IMG/VR virus record: IMGVR_UViG_3300035670_000040 | Location: 1-64,000 of that record | Reading direction: 5' to 3' (one strand) | DNA: 64,000 bases | Source of the DNA: a virus | Shown: in pieces, positions 35,973 through 59,280 of the stretch | Layout: the number at the start of each line of letters is the position of its first letter | Numbering within the stretch: the stretch's first letter is position 1 | Made by a program: the position numbers and the translations under genes | Notes under the pieces: generated by a model | What the model was told of the DNA's origin: nothing | The model's database searches: none | What the model saw: only the letters and a program-made list of their open reading frames with translations

Positions 35973-36797
35973 TTATTTTTCTCCATATTCTATTTTTACC
36001 AATGTTTCATATGTGTTTATACTTTCTTTTTGTGAAAGTTTAACCAAATAATGCTTAATATGTCTTTCATTTACATATTTTTGTAATTTTTCAGATACAT
36101 TTTTTGCAATTTCTTCTATAAAAAGTGCATTTTCATACATTAATTCTGTTTGATATGCTTCATCTTGTAAGTTTGTCATATTATATACAGGACTTGAACA
36201 TGATTTATCTAACAAAACTATTAAATCGTCTATCCAAAACGATTTTTTAATATTAATATCATCGAATTCTACTCTAAAGAAAGCATTTCCTCTCTGATTA
36301 TGAGCGCCATAATCAGAAATCTCTTTTGAAGCTGGGCAAAGCGATGAATATGGTAAGTTTGTTTCTAGAAAATATTTCTTTTTATTTCCTTCTAAGCACA
36401 AATAAATGGAAGAATCGTACTTATACAAACATTTCTTGTTAGAAACAGGTGTTTGTTTTGTGCAAAAGTATGAAAAATCAACTTTTATGTTTAAATTTTG
36501 TGATTCAAAATCTTTTATAAACCTATTTTGCACATCATCAAACAACTCATCTATAGTTGGAAATGTTTTTGACAAAAAATAATCAGATATTTTGTTAATG
36601 TTTACACCATTTGTTTTATTATTAAGTGAAGTTTCGATCCTTACATGACAAGGAGACATATAAGAGTCTCCACTCTTGCTTACTATTTTTATAGGTATGA
36701 ACAAATCTCCACACCCAACTACAGTTGAGTGTGGAGATTGATCAACTACGTTTTTGGAAACGTATAAAATATCATTTTCTTTCTTTTTTTCAGGCAT
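35973..36797 (-). CDS. folE2: GTP cyclohydrolase IB (FolE2 family)
   Basis: 274 aa. Converts GTP to 7,8-dihydroneopterin triphosphate, the first step of folate and of 7-deazaguanine (preQ0/queuosine) synthesis. The key segment is LCPASKEISDYGAHNQRG (153-170), with C154, E159 and H166 as zinc or catalytic candidates. Most FolE2 proteins have CPCSKEIS, so the second cysteine is alanine here. Further matches are VVGCGDLFIPI and SYMSPCHVRIETSL. The start at 36797 follows the gp32 stop by 4 nt; an upstream in-frame ATG would overlap gp32. Co-transcription with gp32 and gp45 suggests a DNA-metabolism role. Confidence 0.75.
   Translation of the reverse strand: MPEKKKENDILYVSKNVVDQSPHSTVVGCGDLFIPIKIVSKSGDSYMSPCHVRIETSLNNKTNGVNINKISDYFLSKTFPTIDELFDDVQNRFIKDFESQNLNIKVDFSYFCTKQTPVSNKKCLYKYDSSIYLCLEGNKKKYFLETNLPYSSLCPASKEISDYGAHNQRGNAFFRVEFDDINIKKSFWIDDLIVLLDKSCSSPVYNMTNLQDEAYQTELMYENALFIEEIAKNVSEKLQKYVNERHIKHYLVKLSQKESINTYETLVKIEYGEK
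36704..36739 (-). promoter_or_regulatory. Stable hairpin inside the folE2 5' coding region
   Basis: Perfect 11-bp inverted repeat AATCTCCACAC (36704-36714) / GTGTGGAGATT (36729-36739), with a further CAAC/GTTG pairing in the loop. It covers codons 20-32 and is unusually GC-rich for this genome. A regulatory role is a guess. Confidence 0.4.
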
Positions 36798-36801
36798 GAT
36801 A

Positions 36802-37698
36802 TTAAAGATCTTTAAGAATTTCTTCAATTTTAGCATCAGCATCATCAAAACTATCTGTTTCTTCTTTAACTTGCTTTTTTTCAACTACGTTTTTCTTTTC
36901 AAAGATACCAGCATTTGATTCAATTTCAACCATATTATCGTAATTTGCATCTTCATTCTCCGATAATGTCTGTTGTGCGTCTTGAGAATCTTTTTCAAGA
37001 CCTAAAAAGTGGAAATCTAGCAATTCTTTAATCTCAGCATAAGTTTTATGGTTAAAAATCTTATCCAAATCTTTAATTTGAGTATAAATTTCGTCAATAT
37101 CATCAATTCCATCAAGTTTAGAAGGAGACATAAACTTGGAACTAACATATGTCGGATATCCACCCTCATTCTGTTCAACTTTAATCTTAAAACTACAACC
37201 ATTCTCTGATAAATCAAACACTTTTGCACCAAACTCGTCAGATTCATCTCCAGAAATTGCATCAGTAATAATTTTGTTCAACTGTTTACCATATCTAAGA
37301 ATTTTTACCTTTCCTTCGTTATCTGGATTGGTTGGATCTTTAACAACGTAGACATTTGCAAGCCAAGATTCATTTCTCTTAATTGGACGGGTCTTATCGA
37401 TCTCTGTTTCGTTCTTTGTACGATAAATTCTCGAACGATACTCTTCAATTGGGCATTTTTCTCCATATGTTGTTGGACAGAGAAAAGAAATCATATTGTT
37501 TGACACAACACTCTTCCACATATGGTGATAATAGTGGAAAAATGTCCTATCTGGTGCTTCAATGTTTGGAAGCAACCTAAGAACATATGTTTTTCCTGTC
37601 TCCATTTTCATAAAATCCTTGAAATTGCTTTCAGTTGGAGCTTTTTTGTTGAGTGCATCCTTAATGGATTCGAATAGATTACTAGTGTATTTGTTCAT
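36802..37698 (-). CDS. 32: Single-stranded DNA-binding protein
   Basis: 298 aa, like T4 gp32 (301). The basic N-terminus (self-interaction), a core with KTYVLRLLPNIEAPDRTFFHYYHH and then CPTTYGEKCPI (zinc-site Cys/His), and an acidic C-terminal tail (DSFDDADAKIEEILKDL) match the three gp32 domains. It coats ssDNA and recruits recombination and replication proteins through the tail. It follows the gp59-like gene as in T4 and has its own TTGACA promoter. Confidence 0.93.
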   Translation of the reverse strand: MNKYTSNLFESIKDALNKKAPTESNFKDFMKMETGKTYVLRLLPNIEAPDRTFFHYYHHMWKSVVSNNMISFLCPTTYGEKCPIEEYRSRIYRTKNETEIDKTRPIKRNESWLANVYVVKDPTNPDNEGKVKILRYGKQLNKIITDAISGDESDEFGAKVFDLSENGCSFKIKVEQNEGGYPTYVSSKFMSPSKLDGIDDIDEIYTQIKDLDKIFNHKTYAEIKELLDFHFLGLEKDSQDAQQTLSENEDANYDNMVEIESNAGIFEKKNVVEKKQVKEETDSFDDADAKIEEILKDL

Positions 37699-45218: not shown

Positions 45219-45230
45219 GAGTTGGCTTAT
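45210..45230 (-). promoter_or_regulatory. Start-codon hairpin of the gp43 mRNA
   Basis: ATAAGCCA / TGGCTTAT arms with a 5-nt loop. In the mRNA the right arm holds the UG of the gp43 AUG and the left arm holds the UAA stop of the upstream gene. It may repress gp43 translation unless a ribosome terminates there. Confidence 0.5.
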
Positions 45231-46528
45231 ATTATCTGATCTTTATTTAGTAAAGTCAAGTTAGGATATTTTTCATTTCTCTCTTTTGACCCCCATCCAG
45301 TCAAATAAAGACCTTCATATAGATCCATATGATCTTCTAACCACATTGTTTCAGCAAAATCTCTGGCTTTCTTTGATTCTTTCATATAAACATTTACATC
45401 AGATGTTAAATGTTCCAACATACCTACTAAATCTCTTCCTGTTTTGAATTTGTTTTGAGATAATTCATAGGTACATAAGTCTTGGTATGCACCAGGTATT
45501 CCGAGAGCACCAGCTTCTATCATTTTAATATTACTCTTTGATTTATTAAAGATATTATCAACCAAAGGAGCAAAAGTAACATTACAATTCGCATCTACTA
45601 GACCTTGTGGGTACTCTGGTAACACAGACCAGTCTAAATACTCCATTTCTCCATTGTCTATAAATGGTTTTACTGCTAATGGGTAACATCCCTTCCAAAC
45701 AAACTTAAATTTCTTTCTTGCTTTGATAATTTCATCAACTACATGACCGAAATCGTCTTTCATACCCGTTCTATTCAAAACATCTATATGTGTACCTGAT
45801 CCAGAATAAAGAACTCTTGGTCTTTTCTTGTTCTTCTCAAAGTTTTTGAGAAGTTTTTGAGAGTCGTACATTCTATCAAGCCAAAATTTCGGCGCGTAAT
45901 TAGGAATAACTGTTATATTCTTATTTCCTGTCTTTTCTATATAATAATCTTTCATGAATTGACAAGTTACAGTCATTTCATCCATCATTCCTATGATTTC
46001 TAAAATATTTTTTACAATTTTTTCATCATTAAATGCGTCCTTGCATCTATTGTAATCAGGAATATCTTCTCTAAAAACAATATCATCAACTTCATAAATA
46101 AGTCTAAGATCAATAGATTTTTTAATTTTATTAAGTTCTTTGATAAAAGATAATTGATGTTCAGTTGCTTGTCTTTGGAATCTAACGGCTTTTAGAGATT
46201 GGTAAAACCTGACATCTAAAATCATTTGTGTCATTCCAGAACAAACTGCTTTTTGATAAAAATTTAAAAGATATTCTGGCCATATCATTCTCCAGAATCC
46301 ACATCCACCATAGTCAGCATAATAATTTAAGACTCTAGGAAGACTGGATTCTGGCATTTCAATTGGTGCTGGTGTAGGAATCTTTATAGGGAAAAGATGA
46401 ACATAAAAATAATTTAATAAATTATTTTGAGTCCCAACAGGAGGAAACGGGATTTCTTTCTTAAGAACATTAAATCCATATGTAACTCTTCTATCAGAAT
46501 TTTCTTCTTTTTTTATTTTTAAAGCCAT
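45227..46528 (-). CDS. Glycosyltransferase, GT-B fold (family 1/4-like)
   Basis: 433 aa. The C-terminal Rossmann half has RPRVLYSGSGTHIDV, FKFVWKGCYP and SNIKMIEAGALGIPGAYQ, the acceptor/nucleotide-sugar site pattern of GT-B enzymes with a conserved glutamate. The N-terminus includes YADYGGCGFWRMIWPEYLL. Similar glycosyltransferases occur near gp43 in T4-like marine phages. The substrate is unknown: phage DNA, virion proteins or host glycans are possible. Promoter 16 nt spacing, TATAAT. Confidence 0.75.
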   Translation of the reverse strand: MALKIKKEENSDRRVTYGFNVLKKEIPFPPVGTQNNLLNYFYVHLFPIKIPTPAPIEMPESSLPRVLNYYADYGGCGFWRMIWPEYLLNFYQKAVCSGMTQMILDVRFYQSLKAVRFQRQATEHQLSFIKELNKIKKSIDLRLIYEVDDIVFREDIPDYNRCKDAFNDEKIVKNILEIIGMMDEMTVTCQFMKDYYIEKTGNKNITVIPNYAPKFWLDRMYDSQKLLKNFEKNKKRPRVLYSGSGTHIDVLNRTGMKDDFGHVVDEIIKARKKFKFVWKGCYPLAVKPFIDNGEMEYLDWSVLPEYPQGLVDANCNVTFAPLVDNIFNKSKSNIKMIEAGALGIPGAYQDLCTYELSQNKFKTGRDLVGMLEHLTSDVNVYMKESKKARDFAETMWLEDHMDLYEGLYLTGWGSKERNEKYPNLTLLNKDQII

Positions 46529-46539
46529 AATTGTGATAT

Positions 46540-46567
46540 ATTATATCAAGTAATTTATAAAAATCAA
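46540..46567 (-). promoter_or_regulatory. Promoter of the glycosyltransferase-gp43 unit
   Basis: TTGATT (46562-46567), 16-nt spacer, TATAAT (46540-46545), 11 nt to ATG on the minus strand. Confidence 0.65.
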
Positions 46568-48369
46568 ATTACTATTCTTGTTTTCCCGTTTATTTTTTCC
46601 AAAGTTATAACATTATCTATATTGTTTTTAGAAACAGAAGGATTGTGTGAAATAATATATATTGATTCTTTGTATTTTTCGGATTTTTCTTTTAAAATCT
46701 CCAATACTTTGTTTGTTCCGATTTCATCCAATGCTGAATCAAAAAGTTCATCATACATATTAAGTGAATAATATATACCAGACTGTGATTTAAGTATGTC
46801 CTGAAATGTAAAAAGTATTGAAATATCTATTCTTTTTCTTTCTCCTCCACTAAAATTAAAATAAGAGCATTCTTTTTTGTTCTCATTTATAATTGTTTCG
46901 TCAAAATATTCATCAAAGGTACATGTACATGGTGCTTCTAGTCTTTTTAAATAAAAATTCAATTTATTATTGAAGAAAACAAGAAGTTTTTTAATAATAT
47001 GTGTCTTAACACCCTCCTCTGAAACAATAAGTTTTGAATTTTCTAGAATATTCAGTGTTTTTTGTTGATTTGTAAGTTTTTCTTCTATTTCTTTTACGGA
47101 TTGTTCTATTTCTTTTATTTTTTCTTCTGTATGATCCTTTTCTTGTAGTAAACTATCTATAGATTCTTGAATTTCCGAATTTTTGTCATTAATTGTAGAA
47201 TTCTCCTTTATTAAAACATCTATATTTGTTATTTTTTGATTAAATGTTTTATATAAATCATTTAATTCTCTTTGTTTTTTGATAAAATTATTTTTTTCAT
47301 TTAAAATTTCATGTCTTTGTTTTGATATATTATCAAATTCTTGTTTTTTTGTGTTTTTATCATCAGATAATTGATTTAAATGTTCTTCTATAGAAGAATC
47401 GTCTTCATCCGACAGTTTTTTCTTACATGTTGGACATATTCCTGTTTTATTCTTTAATGATTTTATTTGTTTTTCTATATTTTCAATTTCAGTATGAAAA
47501 ACTGCTTCTTTTTTGGAAGCATCCAGCAATGAGTCAGCTATTTTTGATACTTTTTCTTCTATTTTTTTAATAGCACTTTCAGTTTTTTTCAAAGATTCCT
47601 CCAATTTACTTTTTGTGTCTAAAAGTGTTTGATTTTTATTTGTTTTTAACTTTTCTTCGTTTTCTTTTATTTTATTTTTTAAAGTTTCAATTTTTTGATC
47701 CTTTATTTGTTGGTTTTTTAATTTTTGTTCTTTAAAAAAAGAAATTGTTTTTTGTTTTTCTGAAAAAAGGCTGGAAGAAATATCATATTCTTTTTTTAAG
47801 TCATTGTAATCCTGCCTAACATTAGAAAGCATCTCACTAAAAACGTTTATTTGAAGAATACTTTCAATAAATTTTCTTTTTTCCACTTTCTTCTGAGCCA
47901 TGAATGGAATAGTATTGTCTAATGACATTATTACAGAGTTTCTAAACAACTCTTCATTTGCTCCTATAAGTTCTATTATGGCTTCGTCTGTTTTTTGAAT
48001 GGTAGAGTATGTTGTATCGACTTCTTTCTTATACAAATGAACTTTACTTGGATTTAAACTTCTTTCTATCTTGTATTCTGTAGTTTTACCGTCTAATGGC
48101 GTTAAGTCAAATTCCAATTCAACCAAACAAGTTTCTTTAGAATGATTGTGAACAATTTTGTCTTTTTTGATATCTCTTATAGTATTTCCGAAGATAACCC
48201 AATATAAGGCATCTAAAATTGTGGTTTTTCCACAACCATTTTTACTTTGTTTATCTTTATTTTCCCCTGTTATAAGAAAAATTCCTTTTTTAAGAGACAA
48301 TTCTAATTCATCATCACCAACAGATAAAAAATTTTTAATTTTTAATTTTTTAAATAAAATTTTTTTCAT
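46564..48369 (-). CDS. 46: Recombination nuclease subunit gp46 (Rad50/SbcC-like)
   Basis: 601 aa (T4 gp46 560). Walker A region FLITGENKDK then KNGCGKTTILDALYW; long coiled-coil arms on either side of a zinc hook CPTCKKK (C312, C315); signature FSGGERKRIDISIL and a D-loop/Walker B MYDELFDSALDE. With gp47 it forms the Mre11-Rad50-type complex that resects DNA ends. In T4, 46 and 47 are close neighbours; here about 9.2 kb of sugar genes separate them. Confidence 0.93.
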   Translation of the reverse strand: MKKILFKKLKIKNFLSVGDDELELSLKKGIFLITGENKDKQSKNGCGKTTILDALYWVIFGNTIRDIKKDKIVHNHSKETCLVELEFDLTPLDGKTTEYKIERSLNPSKVHLYKKEVDTTYSTIQKTDEAIIELIGANEELFRNSVIMSLDNTIPFMAQKKVEKRKFIESILQINVFSEMLSNVRQDYNDLKKEYDISSSLFSEKQKTISFFKEQKLKNQQIKDQKIETLKNKIKENEEKLKTNKNQTLLDTKSKLEESLKKTESAIKKIEEKVSKIADSLLDASKKEAVFHTEIENIEKQIKSLKNKTGICPTCKKKLSDEDDSSIEEHLNQLSDDKNTKKQEFDNISKQRHEILNEKNNFIKKQRELNDLYKTFNQKITNIDVLIKENSTINDKNSEIQESIDSLLQEKDHTEEKIKEIEQSVKEIEEKLTNQQKTLNILENSKLIVSEEGVKTHIIKKLLVFFNNKLNFYLKRLEAPCTCTFDEYFDETIINENKKECSYFNFSGGERKRIDISILFTFQDILKSQSGIYYSLNMYDELFDSALDEIGTNKVLEILKEKSEKYKESIYIISHNPSVSKNNIDNVITLEKINGKTRIVI

Positions 48370-48417: not shown

Positions 48418-49140
48418 TTAAAAACAACTAAAATTAGAATAATATAAATTATCTAAACGATAATGAATTGAATCCAAACCTTCGCATAACTCTATTATTC
48501 TTGGTTTGTTTAATGATGATGCTATTGTGGTAGGAGAACTTTGATTTCCCAAAAACAACTTACAGCTATTAATTTTTATAAAAAAATCATATAAACAAGA
48601 CACTTTTAACATTTCTACGTTGTTTTTAAATTTAAAATTATTATATTGTTCTTCATCAAAACATATAAATTTTGCATTTTGATTATTTTTAATAATTTCT
48701 TCATATTTTTTAGAAGATTTCTGAGTTAATGGTATTCTAACAGATCTATTAATTAATAAGACATCTTTTAAAGAATCATCTTTTTCTGAAATTTCTATCC
48801 ATTTATAATCTTTAGGTGTGTTTTTTTCATTTAAAAATGTTTTTAAAAAAATATTCAACCAATTATCTCTATATAAAAGATTAGAATATCTAAATGATAC
48901 AAGATTTATATCAATACTCTGATTGTCATATATTTCAAAACTTTCAAACCAATCCTGTTTCTTTAAAACAGGGTATAAATCATTATAAGTGAAATCTAAT
49001 CCTTTTTCAAAATTACAACCGATATTACTTAAAAATATTTTTGCTTTAAAACCGGAAATCTCATAGTTTCTTTTGCATACCATCAAACTATTAATAAAAT
49101 CACCTAGTTTTGGACCTGTTAAATAACTTTTACTTACCAT
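48418..49140 (-). CDS. GT9-like glycosyltransferase (heptosyltransferase fold)
   Basis: 240 aa. The N-terminal GPKLGDFINSLMVCK resembles the G-D-x-I-x-S-L start of ADP-heptose-type GT-B enzymes. The C-terminal CKLFLGNQSSPTTIASSLNKPRIIEL matches the nucleotide-sugar site (GNQSSP, then an isoleucine-glutamate). It is the downstream end of the sugar island and overlaps the DUF4254-like gene by 11 nt. Confidence 0.6.
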   Translation of the reverse strand: MVSKSYLTGPKLGDFINSLMVCKRNYEISGFKAKIFLSNIGCNFEKGLDFTYNDLYPVLKKQDWFESFEIYDNQSIDINLVSFRYSNLLYRDNWLNIFLKTFLNEKNTPKDYKWIEISEKDDSLKDVLLINRSVRIPLTQKSSKKYEEIIKNNQNAKFICFDEEQYNNFKFKNNVEMLKVSCLYDFFIKINSCKLFLGNQSSPTTIASSLNKPRIIELCEGLDSIHYRLDNLYYSNFSCF

Positions 49141-49381
49141 ACATTTTAGTAGATCCTTGTTTATATAACTTTTGTGGTTTTCCTGATACGATTAACTCGT
49201 TGATTTTTTCATCTATTTCTTGAATCAAATCAGTTCTGAAAGAATTTGCCACATTTGTTACTCTAGTAGCATCTGCAATTTGTTTATCAGAAGCATTTTT
49301 ATCTCTCTTAATATCTTCTGCCATCCAAATCCTAATATTAGTAATAGTTAATTTGTCAATTAAATTTCCGATTGTATCCAT
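49130..49381 (-). CDS. DUF4254-like small protein
   Basis: 83 aa, helical. NIRIWMAEDIKRDKNASDKQI and an ANSFRTDLIQEIDEKI segment match my memory of DUF4254 (W-x-x-E-D, N-x-x-R-x-D-L-x-E-x-I-D), a small family often found in glycan clusters. Function unknown. AAGGA 9 nt upstream of ATG; overlaps the FkbM gene by 22 nt. Confidence 0.6.
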   Translation of the reverse strand: MDTIGNLIDKLTITNIRIWMAEDIKRDKNASDKQIADATRVTNVANSFRTDLIQEIDEKINELIVSGKPQKLYKQGSTKMYGK

Positions 49382-49995
49382 ATTTTATTTCCTTCTATAA
49401 AATTTGAATTAATATACCAATCTTCGTATGGTTTATTATTCCATTCTGGATTAGAATCCAGACATACTGCATTTTCTACAACTCTAGTATACCCTTTACT
49501 TGTTAGTAAATCAAATATTTTGTTTTTTTGTTCAGATCCAGAACAATATAAATTATGTTCAATTGTCATTAATTTAAACTTCCATTTATTAAAATCTATA
49601 GTATTTAATATAGTAAATTCGTGACCTTCCACGTCTAAAGACAGATAATCTATGGTATCGTCTTTTAAATTTTTTTCTAAAACATCATTTAGAATAAAAC
49701 AAGGAGTTTTAATTCCTTGTTTTGTTATTTTATCAGATGAAAAATAACATTCTCCATTATTATCAGATATAGCACCATAAATATTGATACAATTTCTGTT
49801 TTTAATTAGATTTTGATATACTGAATAGTTTGCCTCTATACATAATCCACTCCAGTTATAATATTTTTCTAAACAATAGGTATTGCTTGTTTGTATTCCA
49901 TCATAAGCTCCAATGTCAACAAAGACTCCGTTAGTTTTATATAATAGATTTTCAAGAACCCATTTGTCTTGTTTTGATTGAGAGAAGTATTTCAT
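49360..49995 (-). CDS. FkbM-family methyltransferase
   Basis: 211 aa. SAM-binding GVFVDIGAYDGIQTSNT followed by LCIEANYSVYQNL, and IDYLSLDVEGHE, are the signature of FkbM/Methyltransf_21 O-methyltransferases, which commonly methylate sugar hydroxyls in surface glycans. It overlaps its neighbours on both sides (4 and 22 nt). Confidence 0.8.
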   Translation of the reverse strand: MKYFSQSKQDKWVLENLLYKTNGVFVDIGAYDGIQTSNTYCLEKYYNWSGLCIEANYSVYQNLIKNRNCINIYGAISDNNGECYFSSDKITKQGIKTPCFILNDVLEKNLKDDTIDYLSLDVEGHEFTILNTIDFNKWKFKLMTIEHNLYCSGSEQKNKIFDLLTSKGYTRVVENAVCLDSNPEWNNKPYEDWYINSNFIEGNKIWIQSEI

Positions 49996-50912
49996 AAATT
50001 TGTTATAATACTATATAAATTATCTCTAAATTTTATATTATTCCATTTAGATCTATAATATCTTACATTATCCAATCCAGAATCCATAATTTGTTTCAAA
50101 TTAAAGTTATTTGATATTGAGATATTTGGAGTTTCTGTTGTTATATGACGAAACATATACGAATTGTTAACAGCCAATGGAGTATCTACACTAATAGCAT
50201 AGTCTATTACAGATGACAGACCTCTTCCATGCATCTCGTCATATAAAAAGACATTTAAAGAATTAGAATTTAAAAATTTTAAAATATCATTATCAGATAA
50301 AAAATTTGTAGTAAAAACAACAGATACGTTTGGATTTGTTATTTTATTTTTACATCTTTCTATTATATTATTTGTAGTATTACCGCTATAATCTCCAAAA
50401 AAAGGATTTGTTATATGTAATTTTATAATAGCTTTATTAAATGTCTGAGATACTAATTCACAAATTTTTTCAAATCCTTTATTATCGAAACCAAAACCAA
50501 AACTTCCTATTACTGGAACTTCATTTGTTTCTTTTTTTAAAGAAAAATCAAAGATTGGTCTAATTAAAGGATAAATTCTTTCAGAAGGATTAAAAGACAT
50601 ATCTGCTGTTAAATAACCATCACTGTGTAAATTATAAGGATAAGTTAATTCATGAAAAATAAAAAGCTGTTTTTTATTTTTTAATTGTTCTGTTTTTTGT
50701 CTAGACAACCATTTCATCGTTGCCGTGTGCCAGTTATAAATTATAATATCTGGATTATGTATTGATAAAATAGAATCAAAATCTTCTACATTATTTGTTT
50801 CTAAGTTTAGAAATTCATACCTAGATTCATTTTGTAAAATATTTTTTATTCTTTTTCCATACTGATATACACCACATTCAAAAATTTTGCTATTTACTAA
50901 TAAAACTTTCAC
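49992..50912 (-). CDS. Glycosyltransferase, GT-B fold
   Basis: 306 aa. It begins MKVLLVNSKIFECGVYQYGK, and PVIGSFGFGFDNKGFEKICEL is the start of the C-terminal Rossmann domain typical of GT4-like enzymes. FLYDEMHGRGLSSVIDYAI provides a conserved acidic site. Overlaps neighbours by 4 nt. Donor and acceptor unknown. Confidence 0.65.
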   Translation of the reverse strand: MKVLLVNSKIFECGVYQYGKRIKNILQNESRYEFLNLETNNVEDFDSILSIHNPDIIIYNWHTATMKWLSRQKTEQLKNKKQLFIFHELTYPYNLHSDGYLTADMSFNPSERIYPLIRPIFDFSLKKETNEVPVIGSFGFGFDNKGFEKICELVSQTFNKAIIKLHITNPFFGDYSGNTTNNIIERCKNKITNPNVSVVFTTNFLSDNDILKFLNSNSLNVFLYDEMHGRGLSSVIDYAISVDTPLAVNNSYMFRHITTETPNISISNNFNLKQIMDSGLDNVRYYRSKWNNIKFRDNLYSIITNL

Positions 50913-52141
50913 TTAGAAATAATTTGAAATTTAGGACAAGGAACAATAAAAGAACCACCAGAAGATAAAAAATCATCTTCTCTTTTTATAAACTCATTGA
51001 TAAAATGCCAAGGTAAAACCAACATATAATCAGGATTCATTTCTCTAACTTCTTCCTCTGATTTAATTGGTATATTAGTTCCTATTGTTTTTAACCCAAA
51101 CTTATAATGGCTTCTTTCTGCTATGGCATCAATTAATGTATTATCTAATCCAAAATATTGAAGAAGAGTATTTCCTTTTGTAGATGCTCCATAACCACAA
51201 ATAATTTTTCCTTTTTCTTTTTCTGATTTTATAAAAGAAACAGTTTGTTCTTTTAACTTTTGAATATTATCGTAAAAATCAAGCCATGTTTTTTCACTAT
51301 TAATTCCTGTTTCTTTTTCCCATATTAATAAGGACTCTATTCTTGTATTACAAATATCACGATATGGTGCTGTAGAAAATTTAAGAATATCACTATTCTT
51401 CTTTTTAATATAAATTCTAAAACTTCCTCCATTTACATCATTTAATTGACAATCTACAATTTTAAAATTAGCTTCTGTTAAAAGTTTATTTATAGATTCT
51501 AAAGACCAATAATATACATGCTCATGGCAAATATTATCAAATGCCAGTTGTTTTATCATTAATGGTGTGTAACTCATTTGTAAAACAAAAATACCATCAT
51601 CATCTAAAACATCATAAACATCATTTAAAAAGTTTATAGGTTCATCTAGATCATAAAACATTGCTATACATGTTATAACATTAGCTTTTTGGTTTTTAAA
51701 TTTTGATTTATTGAAATTTTCTAATGTAAAATAATCTTGAATTATTTGATCAGCTATTTTTTCGGATTCTTGTTTAAAAGAGTCTTCTGCTGGATCAATT
51801 CCTAACTTTTTAAATGTTTTAGGAACATAACTTAATAAAGTTCCATCATTACACGCTATATCTAACCACAAATCATTTTCTTTAAAATTTTGCAAAGAAA
51901 TTATGCTGTCAACAATTCCGCTTAATTCCCTTTTCATGGTAGAATTAATTCCGCTTCTATACCAATACTTTCCAAACATTGAATGAATTGGTGTTGTTTT
52001 GTTTAATCTTGCTGAACCATATCTTTCATCTATTACTAAAGTCAAATCATGCTTTCCTGCTCTTGCATCTGAATCTTTATCTATAAAATCGGATACATAT
52101 AAATCACCCAAACTAAATAATTTTTTATTAAATTCTATCAT
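50909..52141 (-). CDS. Sugar C-methyltransferase-like protein
   Basis: 410 aa. The SAM motif LWLDIACNDGTLLSY, CHEHVYYWS and the C-terminal KIICGYGASTKGNTLLQYFG (Methyltransf_14-type Rossmann domain) place it with NovU/TylCIII-like deoxysugar C-methyltransferases. These usually carry an N-terminal zinc-binding cysteine cluster, but no such cysteines are present in the first 100 residues, so that domain is altered or replaced. Such enzymes act on keto-deoxysugar nucleotides, consistent with the Gmd gene upstream. Confidence 0.75.
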   Translation of the reverse strand: MIEFNKKLFSLGDLYVSDFIDKDSDARAGKHDLTLVIDERYGSARLNKTTPIHSMFGKYWYRSGINSTMKRELSGIVDSIISLQNFKENDLWLDIACNDGTLLSYVPKTFKKLGIDPAEDSFKQESEKIADQIIQDYFTLENFNKSKFKNQKANVITCIAMFYDLDEPINFLNDVYDVLDDDGIFVLQMSYTPLMIKQLAFDNICHEHVYYWSLESINKLLTEANFKIVDCQLNDVNGGSFRIYIKKKNSDILKFSTAPYRDICNTRIESLLIWEKETGINSEKTWLDFYDNIQKLKEQTVSFIKSEKEKGKIICGYGASTKGNTLLQYFGLDNTLIDAIAERSHYKFGLKTIGTNIPIKSEEEVREMNPDYMLVLPWHFINEFIKREDDFLSSGGSFIVPCPKFQIISK

Positions 52142-52165
52142 ATAATATATATTAATTGTTGTTTA

Positions 52166-53137
52166 TTATCTTTTCAATAAAGAAATATCATTTTTTACCA
52201 TTTTAGAAACCATTTCTGAAAATGATGTTTTTGGTTTCCAATTTAAAACAGTTTTAGCTTTTGTTGCATCTCCTCTTAAAACATCTACTTCGGCTGGTCT
52301 AAAGAATTTTTCATCTTTTACAACATATTTAGACCAATCTGTTATTCCTATATTTGAAAATGATTCATCTAAAAAGTTTCTAATTGTTCTGGTTTCACCT
52401 GTAGCTAAAACATAATCATCTGGCTTTTCTTGTTGAAGCATAAGCCACATCCCTTCAACATAATCAGGAGCATATCCCCAGTCTCTAGATGCTTCTAAGT
52501 TGCCCAAACTTAATGTTTCCTGTAATCCTAAATGTATTCTAGCTATACCGTCTGTTATTTTTCTTGTTACAAACTGTTTTCCTCTTCTTTCGCTTTCGTG
52601 ATTGAATAAAATACCGCTACAATTAAACATATTATAAGATTCCCTGTAATTTTTACAAATCCAGTGACCATATAACTTGGCAACGCCATAAGGAGATCTT
52701 GGATAGAATGGCGTTGTTTCTTTTGCTGGATTTTCTACCATTTTTCCAAACATTTCCGAAGAAGATGCTTGATAAAATTTTATATTTTTACTTCCATATT
52801 CTCTTATTGCTTCAAGCATTCTTAATACACCAACACCTGTGGTGTTTGCTATTACTTCTGGTGTATCCCAGCTATCTTCAACAAACGATTGTGATGCTAA
52901 ATTATAAACTTCGTCTGGATTTGATTCTTTTAAACATCTTACTAATGAATTTTGATCTGATAAATCTCCTTTTACAAAGTTTATGTGATTTACTAAATGT
53001 GTAGTATTTCTTCTGTCCTCATTAGCCTTTCTTCTTTCTATACCAAAAACCTCGTAGTCTTTTTCTAATAACAATTCGGCTAGATGACTTCCATCCATTC
53101 CATTAATTCCACTTATTAATGCTTTTCTTTTTTTCAT
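52166..53137 (-). CDS. gmd: GDP-mannose 4,6-dehydratase
   Basis: 323 aa. NAD(P)-binding GINGMDG (10-16), catalytic SSSE (125-128) and Y150-x3-K154 (SPYGVAK), RRGKQFVTRKI and GNLEASRDWGYAPDYVEGMW are characteristic of Gmd. It makes GDP-4-keto-6-deoxy-D-mannose, precursor of fucose, rhamnose and related deoxysugars. The start at 53137 is 8 nt after the upstream stop. No fucose synthetase (epimerase/reductase) follows; the next genes are transferases. Confidence 0.92.
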   Translation of the reverse strand: MKKRKALISGINGMDGSHLAELLLEKDYEVFGIERRKANEDRRNTTHLVNHINFVKGDLSDQNSLVRCLKESNPDEVYNLASQSFVEDSWDTPEVIANTTGVGVLRMLEAIREYGSKNIKFYQASSSEMFGKMVENPAKETTPFYPRSPYGVAKLYGHWICKNYRESYNMFNCSGILFNHESERRGKQFVTRKITDGIARIHLGLQETLSLGNLEASRDWGYAPDYVEGMWLMLQQEKPDDYVLATGETRTIRNFLDESFSNIGITDWSKYVVKDEKFFRPAEVDVLRGDATKAKTVLNWKPKTSFSEMVSKMVKNDISLLKR

Positions 53138-53145
53138 GTTTTTAA

Positions 53146-53829
53146 TTATAAATTTTTCCAATTAATACAAGGAGTTAAATTTTTATCCACCTGTGTCGTT
53201 ACACCAGGTAATGGATTCCATAGTCTTGTATTTTTTTCGGTTATTAGATATCGAAAAAGATCTCGGTCATTCAATTTAAATTTATAAGCAGCATCTTTCA
53301 TTGTACTATTCCAAAATTCTCTTGTGCATGACCAAGTGCAACAGGTAGATTCACATGTTCTCCAATGACAATTTGTTTTTTTAGAAAAAGCTATATATTC
53401 TTTACCTAAAGTGATATCATCTGATCTTGTATATCTATCTAAATGATCATATCCTGTAACCAAATTAAAATTTAAAACACCATAATATATAGTTTTTATG
53501 GAATTTTCTAGATGCAAATAATCATCTTCCACGAAATATAAGTGATTAGTTAATTCATCTGCTATTTTAAAGGTTTCTAATAAACTTTTTTCATTATTAT
53601 TATAATCAATTTTTACTACTTCAAAATTTTTAGGAATATTTTTATATAAAACACCTTTAGGACCATCGTGTACAAAAATAACTTTATTAACTAATTCTGA
53701 AGAATATTCTAGAGCTTTTAGAAAAGAATTAAGACATTTTATTTTATCAAACCAATCGGGTCTTATATGTTTAAATTGATTTTTTAAAATTTCATTCTCA
53801 CAACACCTATATATTATATCAATTTTCAT
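53146..53829 (-). CDS. Putative glycosyltransferase (GT-A-like)
   Basis: 227 aa. VNKVIFVHDGP and LYFVEDDYLHLEN give a GT-A-type nucleotide-binding acidic cluster, and CHWRTCESTCCTWSC is a cysteine-rich stretch. PLPGVTTQVDKNLTPCINW at the end is distinctive. Family unknown. It overlaps the DUF5672-like gene by 11 nt. Confidence 0.55.
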   Translation of the reverse strand: MKIDIIYRCCENEILKNQFKHIRPDWFDKIKCLNSFLKALEYSSELVNKVIFVHDGPKGVLYKNIPKNFEVVKIDYNNNEKSLLETFKIADELTNHLYFVEDDYLHLENSIKTIYYGVLNFNLVTGYDHLDRYTRSDDITLGKEYIAFSKKTNCHWRTCESTCCTWSCTREFWNSTMKDAAYKFKLNDRDLFRYLITEKNTRLWNPLPGVTTQVDKNLTPCINWKNL

Positions 53830-54556
53830 TTTTATTAAAAAGTTTTTTTGCTATTTGTATAGGCAATATATCATTATTATTTTCTAATAAATCTAACAAT
53901 TCTTGTTTATAACCATGACCTCCATGAAATCCGAAATGTGAATCTATTGTAATATTTTTTTCATTTAAATCAATAGGACATTCAAAAGAAAATCTTTTTG
54001 CTGTTTTTACATCAGCATATTTAATTCCAAGTTCTTTGAATTCTTTTCTTTTTAATATACAGAAAAAATTATCTTCTGGAACATAATCTGGATCAGGATA
54101 ATCTAATTTTGATGCTTCTTCTAAGATTTTTTTTGATCTCAGTGAAAACCCACCATTTCCTACTATAATAGGAGTTTTTCTTATATCTATACCCATATTA
54201 CAAGTATACATTCCTCTTTGTGACAATAAAATATCCCAAGGAGCGCCTATATAATCAAAGTTCAAAAAATCATCAGTCCACATGAGAGGATTTGTTACAA
54301 ATCCATCAGGTTGCACTATTAAAACATGGCTTGTGTTTATATAGTTGTAAAGTTCCTTAACACAAAATAAACTATATTCTCCCAAGCTTTTTATTTTTGG
54401 TATAATTTTTGTTTTTATGTTTGAATGTTCTTTATCGCTTAATAAAAACGAATCTCCAAATTTTATATATCTGGAACTATACTCTATAGCCTTTATACTT
54501 TTATCTGAATCTCTCGTATTAATTGATACTATTGTTACATTTTCAAGATTTAACAT
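53819..54556 (-). CDS. DUF5672-like glycosyltransferase-type protein
   Basis: 245 aa. HVLIVQPDGFVTNP followed by FDYIGAPW, VGNGGFSLRSKK and VPEDNFFC is the DUF5672 pattern as I recall it, a family related to GT-A enzymes acting on polysaccharides. An FHGGHGY motif is near the C-terminus. Confidence 0.7.
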   Translation of the reverse strand: MLNLENVTIVSINTRDSDKSIKAIEYSSRYIKFGDSFLLSDKEHSNIKTKIIPKIKSLGEYSLFCVKELYNYINTSHVLIVQPDGFVTNPLMWTDDFLNFDYIGAPWDILLSQRGMYTCNMGIDIRKTPIIVGNGGFSLRSKKILEEASKLDYPDPDYVPEDNFFCILKRKEFKELGIKYADVKTAKRFSFECPIDLNEKNITIDSHFGFHGGHGYKQELLDLLENNNDILPIQIAKKLFNKNEN

Positions 54557-55418
54557 GTTTTTGTAATTCTTTTATTATCTCTGAATAACTAGGTGTTTTA
54601 TAAAAAATTAAATTTTTTGTTTTTTTGAAATTAACACCTTTCCCCAAAACATCAGGTCTTCTTCCGTTTGCATAAACTGGCATAAAATGCGCTCCTTCCA
54701 TATCCAAAACAACATTTATCAAATTTTCTTTAGCGCATATTTGAGTCAAATTAGCTGTTCCTGTTTGATTCTGTACACAGAATAAACAATTTTCAGAATT
54801 TAAAAGAGAACACCAGTCTTTTAAATTTACTAAATGAACATTTGGCATTTTACTAAAAATTTCGTTATGAAATCCTGTTATATAAATTGGAACATTATAT
54901 TGTTTTTGTAAATTTTCAACCAAACCAAAACTATAATCATCTGGCATATTTAAATGCTCTCTATGTTTTCTTATTCGTCTATTCAAACATATAAATTTTT
55001 TATTCGGTACTATTGAATGGTTATAATCTAGGTTTGTTATTAAATCATAATCTTCCTCAAAGAAACGATATTTTGGCTTAGAATCTACAAAATACAAATC
55101 ATGAAAATCTTTTGTTTCCTGAAAAATACAATTTAAATAAAATTCTATAGAGTTGATTTCATTAACAACTTTTTGCTTTTTTATTTCTTCATATTCTTTC
55201 CAAGAAATAGTTTTAATTTGTTTACTATACAAAAATTCTCTACCGCTACATGTAACAACAACATCCTCATTTGTGTTTAATTGTTTTGTATTTATGAGTC
55301 TCTTTGATAAAAGATGTGTTGTTATAACTTCCCAACCAAGTTCGTAATAATTTTCTAATGGTCCAATCTGAAGTGTTTTATCACTATGAATTTCTCTTCC
55401 TGCTATAAAAAATTTCAT
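54543..55418 (-). CDS. Putative GT-B glycosyltransferase (fucosyltransferase-like?)
   Basis: 291 aa. FICLNRRIRKHREHLNM recalls the arginine-rich GDP-binding motif of GDP-fucose transferases (GT23/GT65 class), and CLFCVQNQTGTANLTQI looks like a donor-site loop. With Gmd in the same operon a GDP-deoxysugar donor is plausible, though unproven. Overlaps both neighbours (4 and 14 nt). Confidence 0.5.
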   Translation of the reverse strand: MKFFIAGREIHSDKTLQIGPLENYYELGWEVITTHLLSKRLINTKQLNTNEDVVVTCSGREFLYSKQIKTISWKEYEEIKKQKVVNEINSIEFYLNCIFQETKDFHDLYFVDSKPKYRFFEEDYDLITNLDYNHSIVPNKKFICLNRRIRKHREHLNMPDDYSFGLVENLQKQYNVPIYITGFHNEIFSKMPNVHLVNLKDWCSLLNSENCLFCVQNQTGTANLTQICAKENLINVVLDMEGAHFMPVYANGRRPDVLGKGVNFKKTKNLIFYKTPSYSEIIKELQKHVKS

Positions 55419-56128
55419 ATAAAAATGTCTAAACTTTCTATGTTAATGCAATTATTGTAAGAAAATTTACAATTTTCGTCCAAATAATACAATGTTTTTT
55501 TATTTAAAAAATTATTTTTATTCATAACAGAAAACCAAGGACCAGTATTTATTCCTATAATCTTTTTTGTATATAGTGACAATTGGCCTATGTTATAAAC
55601 TGACATGTTATAATCTAATGTACATGGTATATCCTTTATATTCTTTGTTGTAATTAATTTTTTATTTTTGAATTTTTCTATAAATTGATTTTCTGCTATA
55701 TCTTTCGATAATTGATTGCTTAGAGGTATAGAATTTATTAAAAGTATATCCCAGTCTTGAGATGTTGGGTTGTTTCCTTTTATTTCAGGTAACATATCTT
55801 CTATTTTTTTAAAGGGACATGTTAAGCCTAACAATTTGCATAGTTTATTATACGAATATAGTCTTAATTCGCACAGGTTAAACGGTATGGGGGGGATTCC
55901 AAATTGTCCAACCCAACCTCTATAACTATCAATCGGTGCATTATTATATGGTTTTACAATAATTCTTTGTTTTTCATTTACAAAGTCTTGAACTTGGCTA
56001 CTATGTTTATCCAAAACATAATAATCAATAATCAAGTCTGGATAAATTTTTAAAAGTTCATTTAAAAAATGAGTATGCAGCAAACAATCTCCTAAATGCG
56101 TTTCGCTTTTAAAATTTATTTTTTTCAT
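55415..56128 (-). CDS. GT9-like glycosyltransferase
   Basis: 237 aa. It begins with HLGDCLLHTHFLNELL, the L-G-D helix of heptosyltransferase-like enzymes, and ends with LYTKKIIGINTGPWFSVMN, corresponding to the C-terminal donor site. It resembles the gene at 48418 in layout, so the island has two GT9-like members. Confidence 0.55.
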   Translation of the reverse strand: MKKINFKSETHLGDCLLHTHFLNELLKIYPDLIIDYYVLDKHSSQVQDFVNEKQRIIVKPYNNAPIDSYRGWVGQFGIPPIPFNLCELRLYSYNKLCKLLGLTCPFKKIEDMLPEIKGNNPTSQDWDILLINSIPLSNQLSKDIAENQFIEKFKNKKLITTKNIKDIPCTLDYNMSVYNIGQLSLYTKKIIGINTGPWFSVMNKNNFLNKKTLYYLDENCKFSYNNCINIESLDIFI

Positions 56129-56915
56129 ATATAAATTTTAACTTTTCTAAACATTCTTTTTCTGAAACTATTTTTTCTTGAGGTCCATAATTTTGAACAA
56201 CAGAAAAACCGGTTTTTTTTATAAAAGTTTCTACACCTTTTTTAAATGTGTTTATAAAATCTTCTCCTCTAATTTTACTTTGTTGATGATCAGGAACAAT
56301 ATCTTTTAAATATTTAAAAGATTCATGAACATCTGCAAAATATCTAAATGGAGGGTGAAAGTTTTTTTCAATTGAAAGATATGTGTGATATACATGTTCC
56401 ATAGCATTATAAAACTCTTCATCCATCAATCCAATTTCATCTAAAACGGTTTTGTGATAATAAGAAAATGCTCCTAAAAGATTAAAATATAAATCTATTT
56501 TAATATTATTTTTATATTCTATGGTTTTTATTATATTAAAAGACCCATTGTTTGGATTTTTATTATGATTACCATGTAAAGCATAATTTAAATGCAAAAT
56601 ACCTGTATTTTTGGATGTTTCTATATATTTTTCAAAAACATTTTTATCTATTATTTCTACATCATCTTCCATCAAAAAAATATGTTCACAATTTTTGTTT
56701 AAAAGAAATTGTAGTGCCTTATTTTTAGAAAATGCTACTCCTTTTCTTCCTTTTGTTTTAATATAATTTTTAGGAATAAAAGAAGGTGTTGTTTCTCCGT
56801 CATTAACAACGACAATCTCTATATCTTCTCTTTTAATCAAAGAATTTATAGACTTTTCATAAAAATCTAAACGATCACAGGTTATTAAGCCGCAACCTAT
56901 TTTATTTTTTTCCAT
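56109..56915 (-). CDS. Family 2 glycosyltransferase (GT-A)
   Basis: 268 aa. GCGLITCDRLDFYEKSINSL, DIEIVVVNDGET and HIFLMEDDVEII are the start, nucleotide-binding and D-x-D-like elements of GT2 enzymes. AMEHVYHTYL and a HPPFRYF segment provide the acceptor half. Overlaps its neighbours by 20 and 14 nt. Confidence 0.75.
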   Translation of the reverse strand: MEKNKIGCGLITCDRLDFYEKSINSLIKREDIEIVVVNDGETTPSFIPKNYIKTKGRKGVAFSKNKALQFLLNKNCEHIFLMEDDVEIIDKNVFEKYIETSKNTGILHLNYALHGNHNKNPNNGSFNIIKTIEYKNNIKIDLYFNLLGAFSYYHKTVLDEIGLMDEEFYNAMEHVYHTYLSIEKNFHPPFRYFADVHESFKYLKDIVPDHQQSKIRGEDFINTFKKGVETFIKKTGFSVVQNYGPQEKIVSEKECLEKLKFIYEKNKF

Positions 56916-57651
56916 AATTTGATTGTAAAAAATTTATATTTTGTAGAACAGTCTCTTCATTTGATTCGGTTATTTCATTGTGATTAGGAATAAACTTGTT
57001 TTTATTCATAAAATAACCATAAGAATATCTTACCGTTAAGTCTTCACTAGGAAAATCTTTTATATAAGAATTTTCCATAGTTTTTTTATTCTCTACCATT
57101 TTTAAAGAAATGCTTGGATAAAATCCATTTGGCGTATATAATTTTTTATTTTTTAATCTAGTAATATAATCATAAACATCTAAATCATGAGTGTTTATAA
57201 ACTGTTCATCAAAAAAACCAACATTTTTTATTATACCTTTAAATGTATATAAAAATTTAGTATTAAGTTTTTTTGAAATTTTCAAAATAAATCCGTTATC
57301 ATCTTCTACGTCTAATGTCTTATCATCAACATATCCTGATAAGAACCAAGTTCCAAATGTTTTTGCTGTTTCGTGTATTTTTTCAAAAATACTACTGTCA
57401 TTAATAATTTGATCAGAGTGTAAAATAAAATAATAATCTAAATTATTGATTCTAAAATCATGAAGAATTAAATTCCTCATGTGGGCAATAGATACTTTAT
57501 CAACAAAAATATGATTTTGTATTTTATTGTTTTTAATTGTCGTTTTTCTATTACTAACAACACATACATAAACATTTTCTGGTATTTTATCCAGAACATT
57601 ATTTAATGAATCGTCATCATACAAATCTAATAATCCTATTCCTGTTTTCAT
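56902..57651 (-). CDS. Family 2-like glycosyltransferase
   Basis: 249 aa. VSIAHMRNLILHDFRIN then YYFILHSDQIINDS supplies a GT-A core with an S-D-Q in place of the classical D-x-D, and IKNVGFFDEQFINTHDLDVYDY the catalytic base region. It is the first gene of the island, overlapping the gp47 stop by 4 nt, so it is co-translated with gp47. Confidence 0.65.
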   Translation of the reverse strand: MKTGIGLLDLYDDDSLNNVLDKIPENVYVCVVSNRKTTIKNNKIQNHIFVDKVSIAHMRNLILHDFRINNLDYYFILHSDQIINDSSIFEKIHETAKTFGTWFLSGYVDDKTLDVEDDNGFILKISKKLNTKFLYTFKGIIKNVGFFDEQFINTHDLDVYDYITRLKNKKLYTPNGFYPSISLKMVENKKTMENSYIKDFPSEDLTVRYSYGYFMNKNKFIPNHNEITESNEETVLQNINFLQSNYGKK

Positions 57652-58679
57652 GTAGTTTTATTGTAAATTTCAGTCAAATATTTAATTGTTTCTTCTTTAC
57701 AGTCAATATCCAATGTATCTATATATTCGCATATATTTTGAAGAATGTCAACAGAGTCATATGTTTTTGTTTCTGTTTTATCATTATCTTCTTTTTCCAA
57801 ATACTCTGTTTTAACATTAAATGGTTCATGTTTCATAACCTTCATTAATAAATTGCTTGCATCCTCTTGTTTTAATGAAGAATCTAAATTTAGAGAAACA
57901 AAATTGTTTTTAATTTTGTTGGAAAGATTTTTTTTATTCAAATCTTCGGTTTTTAATTTCACAAATTTTGGAGAAAATGTGTTTTCAATAAAATCAAATG
58001 ATTGATTATCCAGATCAACGATATAATAACCTCTTTGATCTCCTGTATCTCCAAAATTGTGTTGATATGGGCTTCCTAAATATAAAATTTGTCCTTTTTC
58101 ATATATTCTGTGGTCTTTTTTGTGAAAATGACCTGATATTATGAAAGAACTTTTGTTTAATAGATTTTTAGATTCTTCTCCCTTTTCACATGTCTTAAAA
58201 GTATTCATGTAAAAAGTATTGATCTCAAAATGACCAAAACAAATGTCTGAATTTGGAATATTTGAACAAGAAACACCCCAAGGAATAAATGATATTGTTT
58301 TATTGTTTTTTGTTTTTAATAAAAAATATTCTTTATCAACTATTTTAATATTATTCCATCCATCAAAAACACAGATTGAATTTATATCACTATTCTCCTT
58401 GTGTAGACAATCATGATTTCCAGCCAAAATAATAATTTTGAAATCTATAAAATAATCAAAAAAGTTTTTTGCTGTATGTATTGTTTTTAAAGAAATTTCG
58501 GATCTATTATGAAATACATCACCAGCAATAACTATTGTTTTAATTCCATTTTCTTTATAATATTTCGATGCTCTCTTAGCAAATTCTAAAGATATATCGT
58601 GCCAATCCTGACTGTCTTGATAAAGACCTATATGGATGTCAGAAAAACATCCAACTTTTGAATCTATAATATCAATCAT
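57648..58679 (-). CDS. 47: Recombination nuclease subunit gp47 (Mre11/SbcD-like)
   Basis: 343 aa (T4 gp47 339). Metallophosphoesterase motifs: CFSDIHIG, IAGDVFHNR, LAGNHDCLH and SGHFHKKDH. The ATG at 58679 is preferred to a TTG at 58685. Works with gp46 on DNA ends. Its start overlaps gp55 by 8 nt and its end overlaps the sugar island. Confidence 0.93.
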   Translation of the reverse strand: MIDIIDSKVGCFSDIHIGLYQDSQDWHDISLEFAKRASKYYKENGIKTIVIAGDVFHNRSEISLKTIHTAKNFFDYFIDFKIIILAGNHDCLHKENSDINSICVFDGWNNIKIVDKEYFLLKTKNNKTISFIPWGVSCSNIPNSDICFGHFEINTFYMNTFKTCEKGEESKNLLNKSSFIISGHFHKKDHRIYEKGQILYLGSPYQHNFGDTGDQRGYYIVDLDNQSFDFIENTFSPKFVKLKTEDLNKKNLSNKIKNNFVSLNLDSSLKQEDASNLLMKVMKHEPFNVKTEYLEKEDNDKTETKTYDSVDILQNICEYIDTLDIDCKEETIKYLTEIYNKTT

Positions 58680-59280
58680 TATCAAAAGGATTTAAATCTT
58701 TTGTTATAGTTGTTTGATTATTTTTAAGCAAGTTTGAATAACCCTCTGTCATTAACATATATTCTTGCTGATACCTTTCTTGTGCTTCATGGATAGTTTT
58801 TTCTTTTTTAATTCTATTTCTAAATGCATTGAATGCTATTCTAGTAAAATAAGAGAATGGATTTGTTCCCTTTTCTCTATCATATTTTTTAGAAATAAGC
58901 GCCTTAAACATTCTTACAATTCCATCACCAACCATCTCTTCTCTGTATGTATATCCTGCAAAATTTGATGAATAACTTAGTTTACTTGAAATTTTGTTTA
59001 ACATTTCTGCTAATTCATTTGATATAACACCACTATTGTAATATTTTACAATTTCATCATCAAATTGTTTAGGATCAACATAAAATTTTTCCTTCGGAAT
59101 TTTAGGTCTGTTTTGTCTTTTCTTTTTTTCTAATTCATCATAATCAATGTCTTCTAATTCATCAGAATCTTCATCATAATCTTCGGCATAAATTTCATTC
59201 TCTGGATTGTATGCCAAATATTCTTCGTCATCAAATTCTTTAAATTTCTTTTTCGATAGTTTTGTATTTTTCTTCATCAT
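58672..59280 (-). CDS. 55: Late sigma factor gp55
   Basis: 202 aa (T4 gp55 185). FYVDPKQFDDEIVKYYNSGV, LAEMLNKISSKLSY, EEMVGDGIVRMFKAL and NPFSYFTRIAFNAFRN form the reduced sigma2-like core that recognises TATAAATA boxes. A highly acidic N-terminal extension (residues 18-50) and the C-terminal LNPFDND are present; the latter could contact the clamp. Overlaps uvsW by 41 nt in another frame. Confidence 0.93.
   Translation of the reverse strand: MMKKNTKLSKKKFKEFDDEEYLAYNPENEIYAEDYDEDSDELEDIDYDELEKKKRQNRPKIPKEKFYVDPKQFDDEIVKYYNSGVISNELAEMLNKISSKLSYSSNFAGYTYREEMVGDGIVRMFKALISKKYDREKGTNPFSYFTRIAFNAFRNRIKKEKTIHEAQERYQQEYMLMTEGYSNLLKNNQTTITKDLNPFDND

Follow-up and report, generated by a model that had tools for sequence, protein, structure and literature searches.

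The DNA analyzed here (the window) spans the first 64 kb, positions 1 to 64,000, of the IMG/VR virus record IMGVR_UViG_3300035670_000040, an incomplete record of 130,820 bp. An island of 12 open reading frames (ORFs), designated o1 to o12, fills positions 48,418 to 57,651 on the minus strand between the recombination genes gp47 and gp46 (Table 1), which are neighbors in most T4-like phages. The core gene order on this strand is uvsY, uvsW, gp55, gp47, island, gp46, GTx, and gp43, where GTx is a further glycosyltransferase gene. All 12 genes proposed in an initial annotation, made from the sequence alone, were recovered as ORFs, and profile matches confirmed both flanking genes. Eleven of the 12 junctions (that with gp47 included) overlap by 4–22 bases and the remaining one is a 24-base gap (spacings of −11, −22, −4, −4, +24, −16, −11, −14, −4, −20, and −14, then −4 to gp47). 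When the island was shuffled 200 times the longest stop-free run was 125 codons, compared with real genes of up to 410 codons. The stop codon of gp47 shares the bases ATGA with o1, as had been noted initially, and the view that the island is wired into the recombination operon is supported.

IMG/VR was scanned with gp47 and gp46, which gave 117 loci (individual loci carry L-numbers, such as L040 or L247), and the gap between the two genes was measured where both lay in one locus. In relatives this gap was either 0–13 bp (32 loci) or 4.2–9.6 kb (20 loci), with no intermediate sizes. In T4 the genes run 46-46.1-46.2-47 within about 0.45 kb, in agreement with the initial annotation, and in two cyanophages a single small ORF separates gp47 from gp46. 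Because these phages keep the two genes almost adjacent, the island is inserted by comparison with them, and the insertion first proposed from the sequence was borne out by synteny. Within the lineage, the gp46 tree places one change between the adjacent and island states; when the tree was rooted on the distant T4, the adjacent clade was nested among island lineages, which makes gain and secondary loss equally likely there.

When the gap proteins were clustered, 10 of the 12 window genes had no partner or a single weak partner family (21–28% identity), while relatives of o1 and o2 recurred. The other 45 gap clusters, each searched through one representative, gave Pfam matches to GT2, GT6, GT10, GT11, GT25, GT47, epimerases, a DegT aminotransferase, a carbamoyltransferase, methyltransferases, and one dATP/dGTP-diphosphohydrolase domain. 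Some distant islands end before gp46 with two opposite-strand ORFs of about 262–281 aa (L083:8390-10000, L075:8385-10000). A carbamoyltransferase gene lies between uvsW and gp55 in cyanophage S-SSM7 (L308:1064-2638) and an epimerase gene directly after gp46 in cyanophage Bellamy (L307:5105-5821), so sugar genes also occur around this operon in Kyanoviridae.

Within the island, only o1 and o2 are standing residents, a distinction that goes beyond the initial annotation. The lineages closest to the window have an o1 homologue (35–74% identical) in the same position beside gp47, and every full island compared has a relative of o2 at this site. Comparison of the loci indicates that close relatives keep these two genes beside gp47 and that the remaining island genes swap, differing even from the nearest backbone relative. 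Almost every related locus has GTx fixed between gp46 and gp43, including those whose gp46 and gp47 adjoin; the best match of GTx among 50,697 phage records is 25%. Proteins of L040 are 99% (GTx) and 95% (gp43) identical to those of the window, with DNA identity of 87–99% across both genes; L040 has a Methyltransf_24 gene adjoining gp46 where the window has o12, and identity is down to 82% over the initial 300 bases of gp46. In L050 (on a contig shared with L002) identity is 61–85% over the initial 1,200 bases of gp46 and mostly 83–91% over GTx and gp43. Genes o3–o5 recur at 73–83% in L248 and L249, where gp47 is only 40% identical, and o8–o11 recur at 73–92% in L247, where gp46 is only 46% identical. 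By these identities the island of the window is evidently a mosaic. G+C content was 25.6% in the island, 28.0% in the genome, 24.5% in gp46, and 25.3% in gp47; a foreign-composition signal was rejected since G+C shows no break.

On balance, the gp47-gp46 interval is best explained as a permanent site at which glycan genes are exchanged in this uncultured aquatic T4-like lineage, and we hold with fair confidence that what it carries is a swappable surface-glycan cassette. The residents o1 and o2, beside gp47, and GTx, downstream of gp46, would probably have a fixed acceptor. The genes from o3 to o12 would form the cassette that is traded among phages, and homologous recombination in the flanking core genes would be the simplest mechanism for the exchange.

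Table 1 Genes of the island, its flanks, and other features of the window
Feature	Coordinates	Strand	Assignment	Evidence
GTx	45227..46528	-	Glycosyltransferase between gp46 and gp43	phrog_7162 5.6e-21
gp46	46564..48369	-	SbcC/Rad50-type, left flank	phrog_77 8.7e-100
o12	48418..49140	-	GT9/WaaC-fold glycosyltransferase, o11 partner	AF2 + Foldseek
o11	49130..49381	-	83-aa short DUF4254 protein, module member	PF14063 5.6e-8
o10	49360..49995	-	FkbM-family methyltransferase, module member	PF05050 3.2e-14; TIGR01444 just above cut-off
o9	49992..50912	-	Unassigned; probable glycosyltransferase from context, module member	73% homologue adjoining o8 in L247
o8	50909..52141	-	NDP-hexose 3-C-methyltransferase-like, module member	PF08484, PDB 4rv9
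o7	52166..53161	-	GDP-mannose 4,6-dehydratase (Gmd)	TIGR01472, PDB 2z1m
o6	53146..53829	-	Probable GT2-type transferase	L241 relative
o5	53819..54556	-	DUF5672 protein	PF18922 6.2e-20; 83% homologue in L248/L249
o4	54543..55418	-	Unassigned; probably glycosyltransferase from context	76% homologue in L248/L249
o3	55415..56128	-	Probable GT9-like transferase (motif by eye only)	73% homologue, same site, L248/L249
o2	56109..56915	-	GT2-type glycosyltransferase	phrog_2456 7e-22
o1	56902..57651	-	Glycosyltransferase	phrog_2456 7.1e-7
gp47	57648..58685	-	SbcD/Mre11-type nuclease, right flank	phrog_100 9.5e-65
FolE2	35973-36884		FolE2-type GTP cyclohydrolase, beside gp32	PF02649 7.9e-40
gp32	36802-37698			PF08804
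Methylase-like	6954-8036		Matches part of N6/N4 DNA methylase family	PF01555 2.8e-8

Part of the cargo, o8–o11, is evidently an older travelling module that occurs in many large phages and at several genomic sites. A scan with o8 gave 43 phage loci at 53–92% identity, far above what the backbone predicts, and a scan with o11 gave 55 phage loci at 67–93%. In 51 of these 55 loci o8 co-occurs with o11 (within 3 kb in 46), o12 lies directly downstream of o11 in 26, and a Gmd-like or fucose-synthase-like dehydrogenase is nearby in most. The module was located between gp47 and gp46 in L206–L209, L218, L220, L247, and L242. A different lineage (L278, L291) has it upstream of gp55-gp47-gp46, L228 and L229 have it near gp43 and uvsX, and it also occurs at other places, where no core gene was recognized. 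Records that carry it range from 12 kb to 735 kb, the largest being phage record LR756501.

The profile scores identify o7 as a true GDP-mannose 4,6-dehydratase, with a likely start at the ATG at 53,137. It scored 431.5 bits against the NCBIfam model, above the equivalog cut-off of 415, and 3.2e-130 against Pfam GDP_Man_Dehyd; its PDB match 2z1m (1.4e-108) gave 365 bits, compared with 117 bits for 2pk3, which places it nearer to Gmd than to the reductase RMD. The adjoining o8 combines an S-adenosylmethionine (SAM) methyltransferase domain (PF13489, 6.4e-16) with Methyltransf_14 (1.1e-44). Its nearest solved relative is MtmC (2.7e-41), followed by TcaB9, and its EH and Y motifs align with those of MtmC. 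The alignment to MtmC begins at residue 54, and the N-terminal zinc-binding domain Methyltransf_13 gave no match in o8 at E up to 0.1; because this domain was not found, o8 was filed as NDP-hexose 3-C-methyltransferase "like" and not as a full member.

MtmC, from mithramycin biosynthesis, is reported to be a bifunctional ketoreductase/methyltransferase (PMC5103430), and Gmd with a TylC-type 3-C-methyltransferase acting on GDP-4-keto-6-deoxymannose has been proposed as the route to GDP-linked virenose (PMC3539893). Given these two precedents, the likeliest product would be a 3-C-methyl-6-deoxyhexose. Gmd would convert host GDP-mannose to GDP-4-keto-6-deoxymannose, o8 would then place a methyl branch at C3 and might also reduce C4, as reported for MtmC, and FkbM (o10) may O-methylate; the transferases would assemble and cap the product, a surface glycan made in the cytoplasm. 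The proposed virenose route differs in serving a cellular lipopolysaccharide (LPS) and in having a separate epimerase/reductase, which the phage record lacks. The initial annotation had likewise listed no reductase or epimerase in the island, and this holds for the 130.8-kb record, across which the sole match to the Epimerase family (PF01370) is Gmd itself. By analogy, an MtmC-like reduction by o8 may be a way round the missing reductase; MtmC acts on another nucleotide sugar than that proposed for o8. Among the 80 best Gmd relatives in genomes (55–63%), no other tested window protein lay within 8 kb, and the search thus points to no donor or host; the best C-methyltransferase hits in plasmids reached only 34–39% identity.

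The short protein o11 scored 33.2 bits against DUF4254, above the gathering cut-off of 27, and spans only positions 3–64 of this 144-position domain, so that the full domain is not present. Identity per column is 76% over 47 sequences, with 25 invariant residues. Homologues compared with the window protein are 86–93% identical, whereas fourfold sites match at only 26–59%; recent transfer as the cause of the high identity was ruled out by these far-diverged synonymous sites, and the protein is therefore kept alike by strong constraint. The same figures bear on whether the island is cargo without present function, that is, stuffer DNA or decaying genes, a role left open for cyanophage LPS clusters (PMC3037559). 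With residues of o11 kept so far beyond its fourfold sites, all 12 genes intact, and the content of the site overwhelmingly of one functional kind, this is highly improbable.

A model of o11 formed a two-helix hairpin (predicted local distance difference test score, pLDDT, of 90), and a fold search with it against PDB gave no significant match. The phage o11 profile finds two tandem copies in a planctomycete DUF4254 protein (L302:1201-2007; residues 104–155 and 173–250). On this evidence the bacterial form would be the phage unit duplicated in tandem, and the phage form probably dimerizes. For its partner o12, the AlphaFold2 (AF2) model (pLDDT 96) matched E. coli WaaC in Foldseek (5.9e-7, TMq 0.66), as well as WaaF, other GT9 proteins, and the heptosyltransferase TibC. 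In sequence searches, the GT9 family (PF01075) matched neither o12 nor more than 2 of 28 o12 homologues (the best at only 0.0069), and the o12 profile, before folding, had no real match in PDB. In flavobacteria, a link between DUF4254 and the LPS heptosyltransferase RfaF has been noted (PMC9425974), and this matches the o11-o12 pair.

Most of the gene names first given to the island stood, namely DUF4254, FkbM, Methyltransf_14, Gmd, DUF5672, and the two GT2-type genes o1 and o2, with o12 being GT9-like by fold; no search confirmed "GT-B" for o9, "fucosyltransferase-like" for o4, "GT9-like" for o3, or "GT-A-like" for o6. The Pfam GT2 match of o2 (2.6e-4) is under Pfam's own cut-off. No family match was obtained for o3 in the Pfam scan, for o4 in the Pfam and NCBIfam scans, for o6 itself, or for o9 and its homologues, and Pfam scans of the homologues of o9, o4, and o3 gave nothing useful. 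The sole relative of o6 found, in L241, is 25% identical and matches GT2 at 0.007. A late-promoter search found TATAAATA 36 times, few of them 5′ of genes, which is uninformative at such A+T content, and no tRNA was found in the 130.8-kb record.

The best reading of the island is a factory for a surface glycan that contains a C-methylated 6-deoxyhexose, destined for virions or for the host envelope. The initial picture of an island with Gmd and a C-methyltransferase at its center is supported. A virion protein is placed slightly ahead of the host LPS core as target, a preference that is held weakly, and the virion as such is a possible target, somewhat short of probable. It is favored by a link from o2 to Pacc40 gp98 (30.6% over 170 aa, 4e-17), which lies two genes from gp100; gp100 is 84.5% identical to Che8 gp110, a glycosyltransferase described as essential for virion glycosylation (PMC12363180). 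The occurrence of the module in phages with presumably different hosts and the TibC match of o12 point in the same direction. The heptosyltransferase TibC glycosylates a protein. Several points weigh against this reading: the link between o2 and gp98 reaches only 30% over 170 aa, Che8 gp108–gp110 gave no match to o1 or o2 (o2 does not match gp110 itself), the pairing of DUF4254 with GT9 suggests enzymes of the LPS core (PMC9425974) no less than virions, and the acceptor is putative. In addition, no separate ketoreductase was found in the 130.8-kb record, which is incomplete, and no GDP-mannose supply genes were found among the families scanned, so the initial suggestion of a self-contained pathway was not upheld.

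Modification of the host envelope would instead alter the LPS core or another surface glycan early in infection and block co-infecting phages. The position of the island in the gp47-gp46-gp43 operon, which is early/middle in T4, counts for this explanation. The same reading has been published for pelagimyophage glycosyltransferases (PMC7029224), and o11 and o12 recall the flavobacterial DUF4254-RfaF link (PMC9425974), o12 having the WaaC fold. Nevertheless, the o8–o11 module is kept across very different phages (12-kb to 735-kb records) with presumably different hosts, and a search of the island proteins found no flippase, polymerase, lipid-carrier transferase, or membrane segment (hydrophobic windows did not exceed 1.06); we consider this explanation unlikely, if not strongly so. 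Serotype conversion of the gtr type was disfavored because it needs a membrane flippase and a membrane glucosyltransferase, and the island has no membrane protein.

Phage DNA had also been listed as a target. A gene of the thymidylate-synthase fold (gp42-type hydroxymethylase) is needed for hydroxymethyl bases and hence for T4-type DNA glucosylation. PF00303, the family of this fold, was absent from the incomplete record of the window and from eight relatives, five of them of 132–226 kb, while controls were detected; T4-type DNA glucosylation is therefore disfavored, and of the targets first listed the virion and the host surface are left. Glycans on modified bases of phage DNA would fit the location in the replication operon, a-gt adjoins gp47 in T4, and DNA-hypermodifying glycosyltransferases with diverse glycans have been reported (by the title of a work cited within PMC12619734). 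Yet the record has FolE2 but no QueC, and a capped, FkbM-methylated, multi-enzyme glycan exceeds the needs of known DNA glycans, which makes DNA hypermodification very unlikely. The FolE2-type gene lies beside gp32 and a protein matching part of a DNA methylase family is encoded elsewhere in the window (Table 1); QueC is present in the relative IMGVR_UViG_3300034101_004588.

For the surface-glycan reading, several known systems offer comparison. A virion glycan is likewise made by virus-encoded Gmd, methyltransferases, and glycosyltransferases in chloroviruses and other giant viruses, but these are eukaryotic viruses with unrelated genomes and their target is proven. Giant-virus glycan pathways are reviewed in PMC9614988. 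Sugar clusters in T4-like aquatic phages are already known: the cyanomyophage LPS clusters (PMC3037559) and the pelagimyophage host recognition cluster (PMC7029224) are also variable islands of glycosyltransferase and sugar-nucleotide genes. Their sites are different: close to hli03 or phoH, or within the structural region between vrlC and gp14, and not at gp47-gp46 in the recombination operon; the pelagimyophage cluster between vrlC and gp14 comes with tail fibers, whereas none of the 12 island genes is a tail-fiber gene. Synechococcus phage DSL-LC02 (OR032571), whose Gmd and fucose enzymes are described in PMC10611076, shares with the window a row of genes that starts with Gmd, continues with a C-methyltransferase-family gene, and then has glycosyltransferases and FkbM. 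It differs by a GDP-L-fucose synthase in third position, by the lack of a match to the short DUF4254 protein, and by a C-methyltransferase only 33% identical. The mycobacteriophage virion glycosyltransferases Che8 gp110 and Corndog gp38 are also outside the structural operon; their systems (cited in PMC12363180) differ in having two or three genes and no sugar-nucleotide pathway found adjoining.

As far as the literature examined shows, where a single paper mentions DUF4254, the gp46-gp47 exchange site and the kernel of C-methyltransferase and short DUF4254 protein are new. We tentatively suggest, as somewhat doubtful still, that the kernel belongs to an undescribed phage glycosylation module common to many large-phage lineages. 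This module would be built on a C-methyltransferase together with a half-size DUF4254 protein as its obligate partner, the latter acting with a GT9-fold transferase; T4-like phages would load it at the gp46-gp47 junction, and the type of virion (or host) glycan would change like a serotype.

In this aquatic T4-like lineage the exchange site is sharply defined by two core genes, with residents that can be separated from the exchanged genes. The kernel (Gmd-like enzyme, C-methyltransferase, and 83-aa DUF4254 protein) offers concrete enzymes and a specific mass, that of a methylated deoxyhexose. For DUF4254, a domain without known function, the phage unit would serve as a minimal model, with one copy in phages and two in bacteria. 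Together, the findings suggest that phages of this lineage trade cassettes to alter a surface sugar coat, probably that of their own particles or of the host cell.

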